Shown piece after piece: positions 15,093-54,718 of a stretch of DNA of 64,000 nucleotides (the stretch's first letter is position 1; every line of letters starts with the position of its first letter). Source of the DNA: an uncultured Coriobacteriaceae bacterium (lineage in GTDB: Bacteria; Actinomycetota; Coriobacteriia; Coriobacteriales; Eggerthellaceae). The stretch is taken from assembly GCA_902768975.1 (NCBI GenBank), contig CACXMZ010000007.1, positions 62,001 through 126,000 of the forward strand. Direction: 5' to 3'. A model generated the notes under the pieces. The model was not told the origin of the DNA and searched no databases. It was given only the letters and a program-made list of their open reading frames with translations. The position numbers and the translations under genes are program-made.

Positions 15093-15215
15093 ATGGAGCT
15101 TGCAATTGCAATCGTGCAGCTAGTAACTGAGTTGCTAGTGTTGGCAGGTGTAATAGCAGGGCTTCTGTCCAGGACGCATAAAAGGCGCCCATATAAGAGA
15201 CGCCGTAAGCACTAG
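15093..15215 (+). CDS. 40-aa hydrophobic/basic peptide, type I toxin-like
   Basis: ATG at 15093 sits 8 nt after a perfect AAGGAGGT. The peptide has one hydrophobic helix (ELAIAIVQLVTELLVLAGVI) followed by an Arg/Lys-rich tail (KRRPYKRRRKH). This is the build of Ldr/Fst/TxpA-like membrane toxins of type I systems, though no specific family is recognised. Supporting features are the sequestered ribosome site, a hairpin over the stop codon (15202-15224) and an oppositely directed extended -10 promoter just downstream (15274-15282). A second, start-less copy lies beyond HigBA. Toxin function is inference. Confidence 0.5.
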   Translation: MELAIAIVQLVTELLVLAGVIAGLLSRTHKRRPYKRRRKH

Positions 15216-15284
15216 GCTTACGGCAAATCAAAAACACGGCGCTGCGTACCATCTCGCAGGGTGCCGCTGGGTAAGTATAACACA
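15138..15284 (+). repeat. 147-bp direct repeat, copy 1 (left of HigBA)
   Basis: This segment aligns without gaps to 16107-16253. It covers the last 26 codons of the 40-aa peptide, the stop-codon hairpin and the antisense promoter. Confidence 0.85.
15202..15282 (-). ncRNA. Candidate antisense RNA of the small-peptide locus
   Basis: Reverse-strand TGTTATACT (TGn-TATACT; plus 15274-15282) is an extended -10 promoter that would start an RNA near 15267. It would run into the 9-bp perfect hairpin GCCGTAAGC/GCTTACGGC (15202-15210/15216-15224) that spans the peptide stop codon. The RNA would be complementary to the 3' end of the peptide mRNA. No U-run follows the hairpin, so the 3' end is uncertain. 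Confidence 0.4.
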
Positions 15285-15300
15285 TCTTTTCATTAAGTTC

Positions 15301-16106: not shown

Positions 16107-16253
16107 GTGTTGGCGGGCGTGGTAGCAGGGCTTCTGTCCAGGACGCACAAAAAGCGCCCGAAAAAGAGACGCCGTAAGCGCTAGGCTTACGGCAAATCTT
16201 ACAAACGGCGCTGCATACCATCTCGCAGGGTGCCGCTGGGTAAGTATAACACA
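16107..16253 (+). repeat. 147-bp direct repeat, copy 2, with start-less remnant of the 40-aa peptide
   Basis: Gapless match to 15138-15284. It keeps the C-terminal 25 codons in frame (LAGVVAGLLSRTHKKRP then KKRRRKR and stop at 16182-16184), the hairpin and the extended -10 antisense promoter, but lacks the toxin ATG and Shine-Dalgarno. The junction at GGTG|TTGG suggests recombination between repeat units. The basic tail is kept though its codons differ. Confidence 0.75.
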
Positions 16254-16270
16254 TGCACATATGTAAAACA

Positions 16271-34645: not shown

Positions 34646-37294
34646 TTAGTCTTCGAGCACGTCGACCGGTGCTGCGCCTGCCTGGTTTTCAACCTTGCAC
34701 ATGTAGCGCAGGTCGTCGTCGAGGTCGATGGTCACATGTGCCCCTTCGAGCACATTGCCACGCACCATTTCGCCCGCAATGCGGTCCACGATTTCGCGCT
34801 GAATAAGGCGCTTCAACGGGCGCGCGCCAAAGACGGGGTCGTAGCCGTCGAGCGTCAGTTGCTGCATGGCCGCGGGCGCCACTTCGAGTTCGATCTTGCG
34901 GTCGGCGAGGCGGGTGCGCACGGCCTTCAGCTGCAGTTCGACGATGGGTTCGATATTGTCGAGCGTGAGCGCCTGGAAGACCACCGTGTCGTCAATACGG
35001 TTAAGGAATTCCGGGCGGAAGGTAGCACGTAGCGCATTGTCGATGGCTTGCTTCATGGCCTTTTCGTCGCCATTTTCCGCGAACTCGCGGATGAACTGGG
35101 AGCCCACGTTGCTCGTCATTATGACGATGGCGTTTTTGAAGCTAACCACGCGGCCCTGGCCGTCGGTGAGGCGGCCGTCGTCGAGCACCTGGAGGAGCAC
35201 GTTGAAGACGTCCGGATGGGCCTTTTCAATTTCGTCCAGAAGGATGACGCTATAGGGCCTGCGGCGCACGGCTTCGGTGAGCTGGCCGCCTTCGTCGTAA
35301 CCCACGTAACCCGGAGGCGCACCAATGAGGCGCTGGACGCTGAACTTTTCCATGTATTCGCTCATGTCGATGCGCACCATGGCACGTTCGTCGTCGAAGA
35401 GGTATTCCGCAAGCGCCTTGGCCAGTTCGGTTTTGCCCACGCCCGTGGGGCCCAGGAACAGGAAGCTGCCAATGGGTTGGTCGGGGTCGGCCAGGCCCGC
35501 GCGGCTGCGGCGGATGGCACCCGCCACGGCAGACACGGCTTCGTCCTGCCCCACCACGCGTTCGTGCAGGCGGTCTTCAAGGTCGACCAGCTTGGCGAGT
35601 TCGCCCTGCATCATCTTGGTTACGGGAATGCCCGTCCAGCTTGACACGACGTCGGCGATTTCTTCTTCGCCCACTTCTTCTTTGAGGATGGCGCCGTCTT
35701 CCTGCTTTTGGTTGAGCTGGGTTTCGGCTTCTTCCAGTTGCTTCTTCAATTCAGGGATGGTGGCGTAGCGCAGCTCGGAGGCATGCGAAAGGTCGCCTTC
35801 GCGAGTGGCGCGTTCTTCTTCGAGCTGAGCAGCGTCGAGGTCGGCCTTGAGCTGCTGCACGCGCACGATGACGTCCTTTTCGTTTTGCCATTCGGCCATG
35901 CGCGCATCCAGGGATTCCTGGGCCGTGGCAATGTCGCGGCGCAGGGCTTCCAAGCGTTCCTTGCTGGCTTCGTCTTCTTCCTTCATGAGGGCCTGCTCTT
36001 CGATTTGCATCTGCGTGAGCTTGCGCGTGGCCAAGTCCACTTCTTCAGGCATGGAGTCGATTTCGATGCGCAGGCGGCTCGCCGCTTCGTCCATGAGGTC
36101 GATGGCCTTGTCGGGCAGGAAGCGGTCGGAAATGTAGCGGTTCGAAAGTTCGGCCGCCGCCACGAGGGCGCTGTCGGTGATGCGCACGCCGTGGTGGATT
36201 TCGTACTTTTCCTTGAGGCCGCGCAGAATGGCGATGGTGTCTTCTACGGTCGGCTCGCCCACCACCACCGGCTGAAAGCGGCGTTCGAGGGCGGCGTCTT
36301 TTTCCACGTACTTACGGTATTCGTCGAGGGTAGTGGCGCCGATGGCATGCAGTTCGCCGCGCGCGAGGGCGGGCTTGAGCATGTTGCCCGCGTCGAGGCT
36401 CGAGTCGCCCGCGGTGCCTGCGCCTACGATGGTGTGCAGTTCGTCGATGAAGAGAATGATCTGCCCTTCGGACTGCTTTACTTCGCGCAGGACGGCCTTC
36501 AGGCGGTCTTCGAATTCGCCACGGTACTTGGCGCCCGCCATCATAGCGCCCAGGTCCAGGGCAATGACGTCGCGGTCGCGCAGGCTGGAAGGCACGTCGC
36601 CCGCCACAATGCGCTGGGCCAGGCCTTCAACGATGGCGGTCTTGCCCACACCCGGCTCGCCAATGAGCACCGGGTTGTTCTTAGTGCGGCGGGAAAGCAC
36701 CTGAATGGTGCGGCGGATTTCTTCGTTGCGACCAATTACGGGGTCCAGCTTGCCTTCGCGGGCCTGCTGCGTAAGGTTTTGACCGTACTGTTCAAGGGCT
36801 TCGAACTGAGCCTTTTCCGTTTGGTCGGTCACGCGGGTGTCGCCGCGCAGTTCGTCGTAGGCTTCTTCAATGTTCTTGCGCGAAATGCCCGCCACGGAAA
36901 GCAGCTTGCCCGCCGTGCCCTTGTCTTCGGTAAGGGCAATGAGCAAGTGTTCGCTCGTGGCGTACTGGTCGCCCAGGCTTTCGGCGATCTTCACGGCGTT
37001 GTCCAGCAGGTTCATGAGTTCCATGCTGGGCACGCCGCCCATAAGCATGCTGCCGCTGTTGGACACCTTGGGCATCTTGGCGATTTCGTCGTTGACGTTA
37101 GCCAGAAGCGCCGCGGGGTCTGCGCCGATGCGCTTGATGATGGCGTTCAGGTTGTTTTCCTGCGTTTCCAGCAGAGCCTTCAGCATGTGAATGGGTTCTG
37201 CCTGCGCCGCCTCCGCGTCGCTTGCAATGCCGAGCGTGTTCTGAAGTGCTTCCTGCGCCGTAAGTGCTAACTTCTGCAAATTTCCCATATTCAT
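34646..37294 (-). CDS. clpB: Disaggregase ClpB
   Basis: 882 aa. N-domain (about 1-145), AAA-1 with [13 protein letters not shown], the long coiled-coil M-domain (about 405-525, rich in E/R/L), and AAA-2 with [19 protein letters not shown] and [12 protein letters not shown]. It resolubilises aggregates with DnaK/DnaJ/GrpE, encoded upstream. ClpB rather than ClpC is indicated by the M-domain length and lack of a ClpP loop. It is last in the dnaK-grpE-dnaJ-hspR-clpB series and is separated from hspR by the structured repeat 37320-37488, which ends 26 nt before its ATG. Confidence 0.96.
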
Positions 37295-37319
37295 AATCGT
37301 TCCTTTCCGCTTTTTATTA

Positions 37320-37488
37320 CGGCAGGTTTTCTAATCGCGAGCGCTCTCGCTGCTCGTGCAAACAATTCACTGGATTGTTTGCACTCGTGCGCTCCGCTTG
37401 GCGTTCGTTCACTTTTTAAATTGCAATTTTCGGCAACAGCGAAAATTGCGAAGTTTGAACTCACGACATCGCTTTAGAAAACCTGCCG
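37320..37488 (-). repeat. Structured repeat element, copy A (between hspR and clpB)
   Basis: 169 nt closed by a perfect 15-bp stem (37320-37334 with 37474-37488). Inside are an 11-bp hairpin (37356-37366/37374-37384, 7-nt loop) and a 10-bp hairpin (37423-37432/37440-37449, 7-nt loop). Read on the reverse strand, the ~145-nt core is about 85% identical by eye to the plus-strand core of 53319-53500, with identical hairpin loops but compensatory base pairs in both stems and an unrelated outer stem. It lies in the sense orientation behind hspR. Nature unknown: structured RNA or mobile repeat. Confidence 0.85.
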
Positions 37489-37510
37489 CAACAAAAAGCT
37501 CCTCTCCTGT

Positions 37511-37894
37511 TTATGGAAGTCGGCGCAGGGCAGTCGACGATGCCCGGACGAGGCTGGTGACTTGCTCGCGGGTTTCCAGTTCGTGGACACGGTCGGCTAG
37601 GCGGCGAACGCGCTTATGCAAGTCGTCCAACTCTTGGTCGCGTTCGTCCAGCCTGCCCTGTAAGTCTAGGATGCGAATAACGCCCGCTAGGTTGATGCCT
37701 TCGTCGGTCAGTTCGCTAATGAGCGCCAGACGTTCGATGTCGGCCTGACTATACATGCGCGTGTTGCCGCTCGTGCGCTGGGGAGTGACGAGGCCTTTCT
37801 GTTCGTAGGAGCGCAGAGTTTGCGGATGCACTCCCGCCAGTTCGGCTGCCACGCTGATCATGTATACCGGTCTGTTGCGATCGTCTATGCTCAT
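37511..37894 (-). CDS. hspR: Heat-shock repressor HspR (MerR family)
   Basis: 127 aa. A MerR-type winged helix at the N-terminus (YMISVAAELAGVHPQTLRSYEQKGLVTPQRTSGNTRMYS) is followed by a leucine/charged coiled coil. HspR represses the dnaK operon and clpB by binding HAIR repeats, with DnaK as co-repressor. A HAIR-like sequence overlaps the dnaK promoter at 41807-41827. Start ATG has AAAGGAG upstream. It sits between dnaJ and clpB, as in many actinobacteria. Confidence 0.93.
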   Translation of the reverse strand: MSIDDRNRPVYMISVAAELAGVHPQTLRSYEQKGLVTPQRTSGNTRMYSQADIERLALISELTDEGINLAGVIRILDLQGRLDERDQELDDLHKRVRRLADRVHELETREQVTSLVRASSTALRRLP

Positions 37895-38921: not shown

Positions 38922-38982
38922 ACGCGTCCCACCTACCTTTCTACACTTTTTTCTTAACTTACAGGTCCACTAAGGACAGTGA

Positions 38983-39081
38983 GGCTTTTTGTGCTGAGTG
39001 CAATAAACCCGACTGGCGCAATGAGCGTACTCTGTACGCGCAGTGGAACACGGAGGGTTTAGTGTGCCAGCACATAAAGCC
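38983..39081. other. Long nested hairpin between grpE and dnaJ
   Basis: Four successive helices share one axis: an outer stem of about 14 bp with one mismatch (38983-38996/39068-39081), TAAACCC/GGGTTTA (39004-39010/39055-39061), ACTG-CGC/GCGCAGT with a bulged G, and CGTAC/GTACG with a 3-nt loop (39026-39038). Asymmetric internal loops separate them. On the opposite side of grpE's stop lies a CTGCC-GTTA-GGCAG hairpin (39101-39114). Could be an RNA processing site within the operon. Confidence 0.6.
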
Positions 39082-52034: not shown

Positions 52035-53117
52035 ATGGATACCAAGGTAACGCCTATCGACCCCACCACGGGCGATCCCGTCCGTTTGACCAGCTATACC
52101 TGCCATGGTGGTTGAGCCGCTAAATGGGCTCCGGGCGAGCTGGACGAAATACTGGCGCAGATTGCACCTGTTTTGGACGAAAAGGTAACGCTTGGCTTTG
52201 ACACGAGCGACGACTGTGCGGTGTACAAACTGCGGGACGACTTGGTGGCCGTGCTCACCCTGGACTTCTTCACCCCCGTGGTGGACGACCCGTACGAGTT
52301 TGGTGCCATTGCAGCAGCCAACGCGCTTTCAGACGTATTTGCCATGGGCGTTAAGCCCCTGTGTGCCCTGAATATTTTGGCCTTCCCCGTGGCACTGGGG
52401 ACCGAAATTGTGGGCGAAGTCATGCGCGGCGGTTCCGACAAGGTGCGTGAAGCGGGCGCCTTCATTGTGGGCGGCCATTCGATCGACGACGAAGAGCCGA
52501 AGTATGGCCTGGCGGTGTTTGGCACGGGCCACCCCGACGAGATTTTGCGCAATGGCGGCGCTCTGGAAGGCGACGTGCTCTATTACAGTAAACGCATTGG
52601 CATGGGTATTAAGAATTCCGCTTTCACCATAGGCGACGAAAGCCGTGAAAGCATGCAGCCCGTTATCGATCAGATGATGGAACTGAACCGTTATGCCGCC
52701 GAAGCCTTCGAAGGCTTGGACGTGCACGCCTGCACCGACGTGACGGGCTTTGGGCTGGCGGGCCACTTGCACGAAATGCTGGAACCCAGTGGCATGGCGG
52801 CCATCCTGAACTGGAACGCCCTGCCCCTGTTTGACGGCGTGTATGAGTATTCGCAGAAGGGCTGCCGCCCTGGGCGTTCCTTCGACGTGCAGGAATGGGC
52901 GCAGGACTTTGTGCGCAAGGGCACCATGGGCGACGACGAATACAACGACAAGATGGGCGTACTGTGCGACCCGCAAACCTCTGGTGGCCTGCTCATTGCG
53001 CTCAACCCCGCTGACGCGCAAGCCTACGAAGCGCGCTTCGAAGAACTGCTCGGGCGCGCGCCGTACCGCATCGGCGAAATCACCTTCGGCCCCACCGGCA
53101 CCATCTTCATACGGTAA
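52035..53117 (+). CDS. selD: Selenophosphate synthetase containing selenocysteine
   Basis: 360 aa when the in-frame TGA at 52113-52115 is read as selenocysteine 27. The ATG at 52035 follows AGGGAGGTG. The N-terminus reads SYTCHGG-U-AAKWAPGELDEIL, the catalytic-loop position (Cys17 in E. coli SelD), followed by Lys. The rest is standard: GFDTSDDCAVYKL, LDFFTPVVDDPYEFGAIAAANALSDVFAMG, GGHSIDDEEPKYGLAV, TDVTGFGLAGHL and CDPQTSGGLL. It makes selenophosphate for Sec-tRNA. Conventional gene calls would start at 52173 or flag a pseudogene. SelA, SelB and selC are not in the window. Confidence 0.93.
52113..52140 (+). promoter_or_regulatory. Sec UGA codon and candidate bacterial SECIS hairpin
   Basis: After TGA (52113-52115) and a 12-nt spacer, GCTC (52128-52131) can pair with GAGC (52137-52140) around CGGGC. 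An alternative stem GAGCC/GGCTC (52114-52118/52127-52131) excludes it. Recoding itself is well supported by protein conservation; the exact SECIS fold is uncertain. Confidence 0.5.
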
Positions 53118-53303
53118 AAAGGGTAATACATTCTTTTCCTCGGCTCGCTTTTTTAACGGCACGAGAAGTGCGCAAATGAAGCGCGCGATAACTAGGGCAC
53201 TCTTCACCACATCCCAGCATTGTTTGGCCTAGTAATTAGACTACAGCGCACTTCCTGCGCCTAAAAGCTCCCAAAGTTCGGAAAAGAACGTATTACCCTT
53301 TTT
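53116..53303 (+). other. 188-nt long imperfect hairpin after selD
   Basis: A 24-nt outer inverted repeat (53116-53139/53280-53303, 23 of 24 paired by strict complement, the odd one a G-T pair) starts in the selD stop codon and ends in a T5 run. Inside, GCTTTT/AAAAGC (53147-53152/53263-53268), GAAGTGCGC/GCGCACTTC (53165-53173/53246-53254) and ACTAGG/CCTAGT (53191-53196/53228-53233) continue the same axis. The A5...T5 ends look like a bidirectional terminator whose loop has been expanded by an insertion. No ORF of note inside. Confidence 0.7.
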
Positions 53304-53318
53304 CTGGTGCATAGTTAG

Positions 53319-53500
53319 ACGGTATTTTGTTTCTCTAAAAGCGATGTCGTGAGTTCAAACTCCGCAATTTTTGCTGTTGCCAAAAATTGCACTTAACTAA
53401 GTTGACGAGCGTCAAGCGAGAGCGCATGAGTGAAAACAATCCAGTGAATTGTTTTCACGAACAGCGGAAGCGGTCGCGATTTAGAGAAACAAAATACCGT
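53319..53500 (+). repeat. Structured repeat element, copy D (between selD and GT4)
   Basis: 182 nt closed by a perfect 21-bp stem (53319-53339/53480-53500). Inside: a 10-bp hairpin (53364-53373/53381-53390, loop CTGTTGC), TTGAC-GAGC-GTCAA (53402-53415), and an 11-bp hairpin (53430-53440/53448-53458, loop CCAGTGA). The core matches the reverse strand of 37320-37488 at about 85% by eye; both loops are identical, and the stem changes are compensatory (T-A to C-G and A-T to C-G). It ends at the GT4 stop codon. See copy A. Confidence 0.85.
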
Positions 53501-54718
53501 TTATCTGGATTGTACGATGCGATTGCAGACGGCGTCCCAGGAAAGGACGGTGGGGTCTGCGGTGGGCGCTGGAGCTGCCAGGGCTTCGGCGAGTGCCTGC
53601 GCCAGATGCGCCTCGAAGGCAGGAAGCGCTTCTTCGGCAGGTTCGTCGGACGTGCGCATGGTAGGCGGTTCCACGAACCAGATGGGCGCGTCGGGCAGGT
53701 GCGCGCAAATCCATTCCTGGATGCCTGGCAAGTCGGTGGCTACCACGTTGCAGCCACAGCCCATGGCTTCCAAGATAACCAGGGGCAAACCTTCGTAGAA
53801 GGAAGGCAACACAAACACGTTGGCACGGTTGTACGAGTCGATGAGTTCCTGCTGCGAAACCACCCCCGCAAAGCGAATGGGGTACGGGCAGACTTGGGCG
53901 AGCGCGAAGGCTTCGTCGTATTCAGCCTGGTCGCTATAGCCACCAACCAGAATGGTTTCAGTGGGAGCGTCTTCAGGCGTCATTTGGCTGATGGCGCTAA
54001 TAAGGCTTTCTACCCCTTTGCGACGCCAAATCTTCCCCACGTACACCAGGCGGCGAGCACCTTCTTCCCGCATGCCGGGCTCGGGGAAGAACTGCCCCTT
54101 GTCGTAGCCCGTGCCAATAACACGAATGCGTTCCGCGGGCACCCCGTAGACTTCGGCAATTTCAGCCGCCTGGGGCGCATGCAGGGCCAGCACTTCATCG
54201 AGCATTTGGATGCCTTCAATAATGAAGTCGCGCTCGAGGCTGTGCATGCGCATCTGGTTAATGTCGGTGCTGTGGCACACGGCTACCGCCTTGCAGTTGG
54301 CAAGCGCGGGGTTTTCCAGGGCGTGCTGCTGCAGCCCATGGACGACCACCGATGTCGCCAAATACAGGTGGTGGCAAATGACTAAATCGGGCGTGAAGCT
54401 GTCCAGCACTTCGGCAAGTTTGTGCGCGAAAGCCGCTTTGAACTGCACGGCCATTTCAGGCGTGAAGTCGCAGTAGCGCGTGGCCTTATAGGGCATGACG
54501 TTGCTCATGCCGGCTACGGGAAAGGGCAGCTCGTCCGTTTCGAAACGCACGGGGTGAAATGAAACTCCCGCGGGAAAAGCAGGGGCGTCTTCAGGCCCGA
54601 TGCCCGCAATGACCGCCTGGGTATGACCTGCGCGCGCAAAGCCTTCCACCAGTTGGGCTAGGTAAATACCGCTGCCCGTGGAGTCGGGTTTTTGCGCGCT
54701 CAGGTGAAGAATGTTCAT
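53501..54718 (-). CDS. GT4-family glycosyltransferase, second
   Basis: 405 aa. GT-B fold with MNILHLSAQKPDSTGSGIYLAQLVEGFARAG at the start, LVICHHLYLATSVVV and VCHSTDINQMRMH in the first domain, RIRVIGTGYDKGQFF, LVYVGKIWRRKGVESLI and the ANVFVLPSFYEGLPLVILEAMGCGCNVVATD acceptor motif (Glu-x7-Glu). It differs clearly from the GT4 at 23584. Substrate unknown. Its stop codon abuts the structured repeat. The next upstream gene is a zinc-ribbon protein, 49 nt away. Confidence 0.87.
   Translation of the reverse strand: MNILHLSAQKPDSTGSGIYLAQLVEGFARAGHTQAVIAGIGPEDAPAFPAGVSFHPVRFETDELPFPVAGMSNVMPYKATRYCDFTPEMAVQFKAAFAHKLAEVLDSFTPDLVICHHLYLATSVVVHGLQQHALENPALANCKAVAVCHSTDINQMRMHSLERDFIIEGIQMLDEVLALHAPQAAEIAEVYGVPAERIRVIGTGYDKGQFFPEPGMREEGARRLVYVGKIWRRKGVESLISAISQMTPEDAPTETILVGGYSDQAEYDEAFALAQVCPYPIRFAGVVSQQELIDSYNRANVFVLPSFYEGLPLVILEAMGCGCNVVATDLPGIQEWICAHLPDAPIWFVEPPTMRTSDEPAEEALPAFEAHLAQALAEALAAPAPTADPTVLSWDAVCNRIVQSR

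Follow-up and report, generated by a model that had tools for sequence, protein, structure and literature searches.

A dispersed hairpin repeat with locus-specific outer stems at the hspR/clpB and selD loci of an Eggerthellaceae genome

Two copies of the repeat in the window

The window, i.e. the whole stretch of 64 kb that was analysed, contains two copies of a structured repeat (Table 1). Copy A is located between hspR and clpB, and copy B between a gene for a family 4 glycosyltransferase and selD. The cores of both copies were compared by BLAST against their own genome and are 87% identical over 143 nt, close to the value of about 85% given in the earlier note. Both hairpin loops are the same in A and B, as had been claimed, and each inner stem differs by one compensatory change (hairpin 1, GTGC../..GCAC to GTGA../..TCAC; hairpin 2, ..TTCG/CGAA.. 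to ..TTTG/CAAA..). The outer stems were measured and are indeed perfect over 15 bp (A) and 21 bp (B), and the stem of copy A extends to 26 bp with two mismatches. Both copies had been described as following a gene in sense direction. This is correct for one strand (hspR, selD), but the two genes around copy B are convergent; the outer stem of this copy starts right where the glycosyltransferase gene ends, while ~200 bp with a second repeat separate it from selD.

Table 1. Positions of the two copies and of their neighbouring genes in the window.
Feature	Position	Strand	Remark
Copy A, full extent	37309-37499		
Copy A, core	37333..37475	+	~143 nt; own-genome BLAST
Copy A, 5' arm of locus-specific outer stem	37309..37334	+	perfect in its inner 15 bp; 2 mismatches over 26 bp
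Copy A, 3' arm of outer stem	37474..37499	+	end is 11 nt ahead of hspR stop codon
Copy A, hairpin 1	37356..37384	+	covarying stem, loop TCACTGG
Copy A, hairpin 2	37423..37449	+	GCAATTTTCG GCAACAG CGAAAATTGC
Copy B, full extent	53319-53500		
Copy B, core	53338..53481	-	own-genome BLAST (C7:115338-115481, minus 62000)
Copy B, 5' arm (on - strand) of 21-bp perfect outer stem	53480..53500	-	
Copy B, 3' arm (on - strand) of outer stem	53319..53339	-	
clpB, downstream neighbour of copy A	34646..37294	-	TIGR03346
SD-like GGAAAGGAA of clpB	37300-37308		abuts copy A outer stem, outside the stem; from sequence
hspR, upstream neighbour of copy A	37511..37894	-	NF047375
Family 4 glycosyltransferase gene, stop codon touching copy B outer stem	53501..54718	-	PF13692, PF00534
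selD, convergent neighbour of copy B	52173..53117	+	TIGR00476

A specific role of the repeat at clpB, for which it had been proposed as the leader, was not confirmed. In the relative G001 a short gap joins hspR and clpB with no element between them, and G002 likewise has both genes without the element; a conserved clpB leader was therefore rejected. The SD-like sequence of clpB adjoins the outer stem of copy A but is not part of it. Copy A might affect clpB in this species, but none of the present results points to such an effect.

Copy number and structure of the core

About 30 copies were found in the genome of the window (G000; 1.89 Mb, 10 contigs), some of which are partial, nested or fused. 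Within the genus, G001 and G004 have 11-15 copies each and G005 has one or two weak ones; no copies were found in G002 and G003, both of which are incomplete genomes. The hosts detected in an exact-pattern scan were Eggerthellaceae genomes from deer gut. A search with a core model gave matches in other genera of the family, and the same architecture was found in at least seven other genera, where the outer stems inspected have ~18-46 bp (L202 with 46 bp and no mismatch). One weak match of the class-wide model search outside the family (L201 in G159) overlaps a tRNA-like sequence and was treated as false. No covariance-model match was obtained from Rfam at the gathering threshold or at E 0.5, and nothing was found in the literature on this element in Eggerthellaceae. 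Contig C16 of G001 (L102) and contig C479 of G005 (L103) have equal length and equal match coordinates, which suggests cross-contamination of these two assemblies.

The core of ~145 nt is composed of, in this order, AATCGCGACCGCTTCCGCTGYTC, hairpin 1, YTCRTGCGCT, a middle part, hairpin 2 and TTTGAACTCACGACATCGCTTT, and its two hairpins are closed by a short GCGA/TCGC stem. Hairpin 1 occurs in 23 different versions, all with perfect stems of 10-14 bp except one bulged type, and none of these variants is interrupted by a G-U pair. When 26 loci were aligned, 96.4% of the cells of the whole structure paired, compared to 69.6% after shuffling and 34-47% when the structure was slid by 1-3 columns as a control. 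For the outer stem 93.7% of the cells paired, and changes on both sides were present in 17/17 outer pairs and in 8/11 pairs of hairpin 1. The earlier note had proposed a covarying structured repeat family, to be given up if no more copies existed or if the stems lacked covariation; neither is the case, and the family as such was confirmed. In the composite copies L023, L026, L032 and L071, another hairpin module (TATGCGCTCAGCTTCGCTGAGCTGCATGCTCCC...) interrupts hairpin 1.

Perfect covariation is usually taken to prove that an RNA structure is under selection. The repeat would then be a 3'-end or intercistronic mRNA element, the stems of which are kept by selection on the transcript while the sequence of the outer stem is free. 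This agrees with the strong covariation of hairpin 1 and of the outer stem, with the persistence of the core motif in other genera and with the position of most copies, which sit in intergenic places 3' of a gene (gene orientation was taken from simple ORF lists and by eye). However, the copies are paralogous, so that covariation shows pairing which is produced or kept per site and not by itself selection for an RNA. Further points against a structured RNA are the absence of interrupting G-U pairs from hairpin 1, the lack of a clear strand preference in tandem gene pairs, which were read manually, the many sites that are empty in relatives and the missing Rfam match even at a low threshold.

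Locus-specific outer arms

Each copy in the genome is closed by its own outer stem, which has 12-26 bp and is nearly perfect. A census of 34 copies of the genus, in which L035 is under-measured, gave a mean recorded arm of 19.6 bp with 36 mismatches in 666 pairs, and 15 copies were perfect; with 94.6% Watson-Crick pairs, the arms are homogenised in the way expected of template switching. A stem score ≥ 12 was reached by the own-locus arms of 36 of the 39 copies and by 14 of 1482 cross-locus pairings, which excludes chance pairing of the outer arms. The 14 stray pairings are probably orthologues with the same arms. Cores which are 97.8% identical sit inside unrelated arms (L013/L014 and L011/L012), and it follows that the core moves, whereas the arms do not. 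Between G000 and G004 the arms of one orthologous pair (L025/L054) drift with no visible compensation. A test of arm mismatches against core age, in which some copies were in a wrong register, gave no signal.

The 5' arms are G-rich in 30/32 informative copies of the genus and in 22/26 copies of other genera. Read on the core + strand, A.C mismatches outnumber G.T mismatches in the arms, both in the genus (22 vs 8) and in other genera (20 vs 8), giving 42 vs 16 in the pooled data (p about 9e-4). An RNA that corresponds to the complement of the core + strand and tolerates G-U would be expected to show such a bias. Since RNA from the complementary strand would fit it, a structured RNA was kept as an alternative, albeit an unlikely one.

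Empty sites and inverted cores

The core could also have been inserted, as the earlier note had considered, into the loop of hairpins already there, of which terminators would be an example. The outer stems are unrelated between loci and many begin right behind a stop codon, as such insertions would have it. Nevertheless, where the core is missing from a relative, the aligned site has no hairpin either. This applies to L030 in G004 and G001, L018 in G004, L048 in G005, the core-less L067 and L046 sites in G000 and G003 and the site of copy A in G001, all of which are comparisons between species based on draft or metagenome assemblies. In addition, the window contains just two plain hairpins with 13-14 bp, and at L018, L020 and L046 the element lies behind a real terminator that is intact. 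The 3' arms listed were inspected and are not followed by a T run, which likewise speaks against terminators as targets. We regard insertion into ready-made hairpins as highly improbable. Due to the missing T run, the repeat itself was also rejected as an intrinsic terminator.

At the site of L026, G004 has the 3' arm GCACTACCAGCAAG with neither core nor 5' arm. Hence, the best reading is that the 5' arm was copied in inverted form from the 3' arm, but a deletion in G004 could mimic a single ancestral arm. At L011, both arms run into the last codons of two convergent genes; in G001, the 5' arm of this site is shared in part and the 3' side is different. L026 and L011 are the only cases in which, compared to an ancestor, one arm may have been replaced as a block by the other in inverted form, and the ancestral arm is clear at L026 only. 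Because the relatives are 10-20% diverged, most intergenic flanks are unalignable. The flanks form inverted and not direct repeats, and no direct target duplication was seen, close empty sites lacking. At the G004 site orthologous to L033 (L101), the palindrome present is an unrelated one (TGGAACAGGGGACGGGTTTTTGTTCCA..); different hairpin repeats are drawn to this one 3' region.

Using both flanks as guides, the core was found to be inverted between species at the orthologous sites L032/L051, L031/L071, L015/L050, L021/L069 and L011/L068, and to have the same orientation at L009/L042, L015/L053, L021/L049, L065/L067 and L025/L054. Such flips of orientation at orthologous sites argue against a structured RNA. 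For L032/L051 and for the inverted remnants L024/L111 and L046/L144, the spacer is inverted and the arms are kept; these are true inversions. At L015/L050, L021/L069 and L011/L068 the arms are completely different as well, so that a second insertion is possible there.

Proposed origin of the stems

When the polymerase switches template between inverted repeats, their arms become identical and the spacers are inverted (PMC8604942), and perfect hairpins can be created in one event and kept (PMC8794818). As both arm homogenisation and spacer inversion are seen here, we infer template switching and consider the element to be, with fair probability, a dispersed hairpin repeat of the non-autonomous kind, with outer arms written from flanking DNA during replication. 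The ~145-nt core spreads to further sites between genes, in nearly all cases directly 3' of a gene, and may be moved by an enzyme. Its hairpins would enable the strand under replication to fold back on itself or to move over to the opposite strand, whereupon one flank would be copied as an inverted twin which replaces, or is added to, the other flank. Being a strong hairpin, the core would provoke the switching and thus be wrapped in copies of its own flank, presumably at insertion or soon after. The same switching would turn the core round between its two arms.

The covarying structured repeat family of the earlier note is borne out, but its conclusion that the fold is selected is not the sole reading, since template switching fits the arms and the core inversions too and yields perfect pairing and spacer inversion without RNA selection (PMC8794818, PMC8604942). 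Thus, the earlier interpretation is partly supported, and such repeats should not be called conserved RNAs on covariation. The G-rich 5' arms and the bias of A.C over G.T mismatches are misfits to random copying, which predicts neither, and leave room for an RNA role of the repeat.

A transposition mechanism of its own might also write the inverted copy of the target at insertion, for instance by hairpin-primed synthesis with a dedicated enzyme, the arms then being a hallmark of insertion and not of template switching at a later time. All full copies have arms, young copies have perfect ones, and one arm is ancestral at L026, each of which would be in line with such a mechanism. Against it, no reverse transcriptase domain was found in the genus and no Y1 transposase in G000 (five relatives have one, not linked to the repeat in this analysis), no autonomous copy was found, and the core inversions need a further step. 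Accordingly rated as quite improbable, this mechanism is of interest since arms made at insertion, if true, would mean that mobile elements can obtain their ends in a novel manner. It is a tentative possibility that the repeat represents a family-wide mobile hairpin which carries only its loop, builds unique long terminal inverted repeats from the target upon insertion and then flips freely between them.

Comparison with known repeats

REP/REPIN sequences with RAYT (TnpA-REP) are, like the repeat described here, dispersed, non-autonomous and palindromic, and are located 3' of genes, in the gaps of convergent or tandem gene pairs (PMC3733652, PMC3116915). REPs have 20-40 bp, whereas the present core has ~145 nt with two hairpins, and its locus-specific outer stems have up to 46 bp in the family. 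A RAYT system also implies a Y1 transposase in the same genome, which the host lacks. MITEs (PMC10969869) are likewise short, non-coding and multi-copy with inverted repeats at their ends. Their terminal repeats are common to all copies, whereas the long outer repeats found here differ in every copy; only the inner 4 bp are common between copies, and the outer arms pair only with themselves.

In template-switch quasipalindrome mutations, imperfect arms are made perfect and the sequence between them is inverted (PMC8604942, PMC8794818), which resembles the situation here. However, the known spacers comprise a few bases, whereas the spacer here is a repeat of ~145 nt and arms are present at every copy. 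Perfect locus-specific inverted repeats which are kept identical without apparent function have been described as coding palindromes of Nematomorpha and were proposed to be parasitic (PMC6649704), but those are mitochondrial and inside genes, and no shared dispersed core was described for them. The dozens of loci per genome at which perfect stems seem to have been copied make a template-switch origin of hairpins testable in bacteria. Rather than a clpB switch, the element at clpB seems to be the naturally preserved trace of an error in DNA copying.

Further repeats in the window and in the relatives

The repeat adjoining copy B (window 53134-53303, - strand) is a second dispersed structured element of ~170 nt, of which G000, G001 and G004 contain at least 12 copies; it has long closing stems which are different between most loci. 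A third dispersed repeat of ~110 nt is located behind the dnaJ-side gene (window 38958-39077), with copies in G000, G001 and G003. Another repeat, around GCCCCTTGTTTTG..CGTGTACCCAAGTACACTTCG..CAAAGGCGGGGC, was found at L117 in G004 and at many sites of the genus, with dozens of matches. Finally, a direct repeat of 148 nt with 90% identity (window 15138-15285 and 16107-16254) flanks a small locus of two genes, which includes a helix-turn-helix protein and is located close to a tRNA gene.
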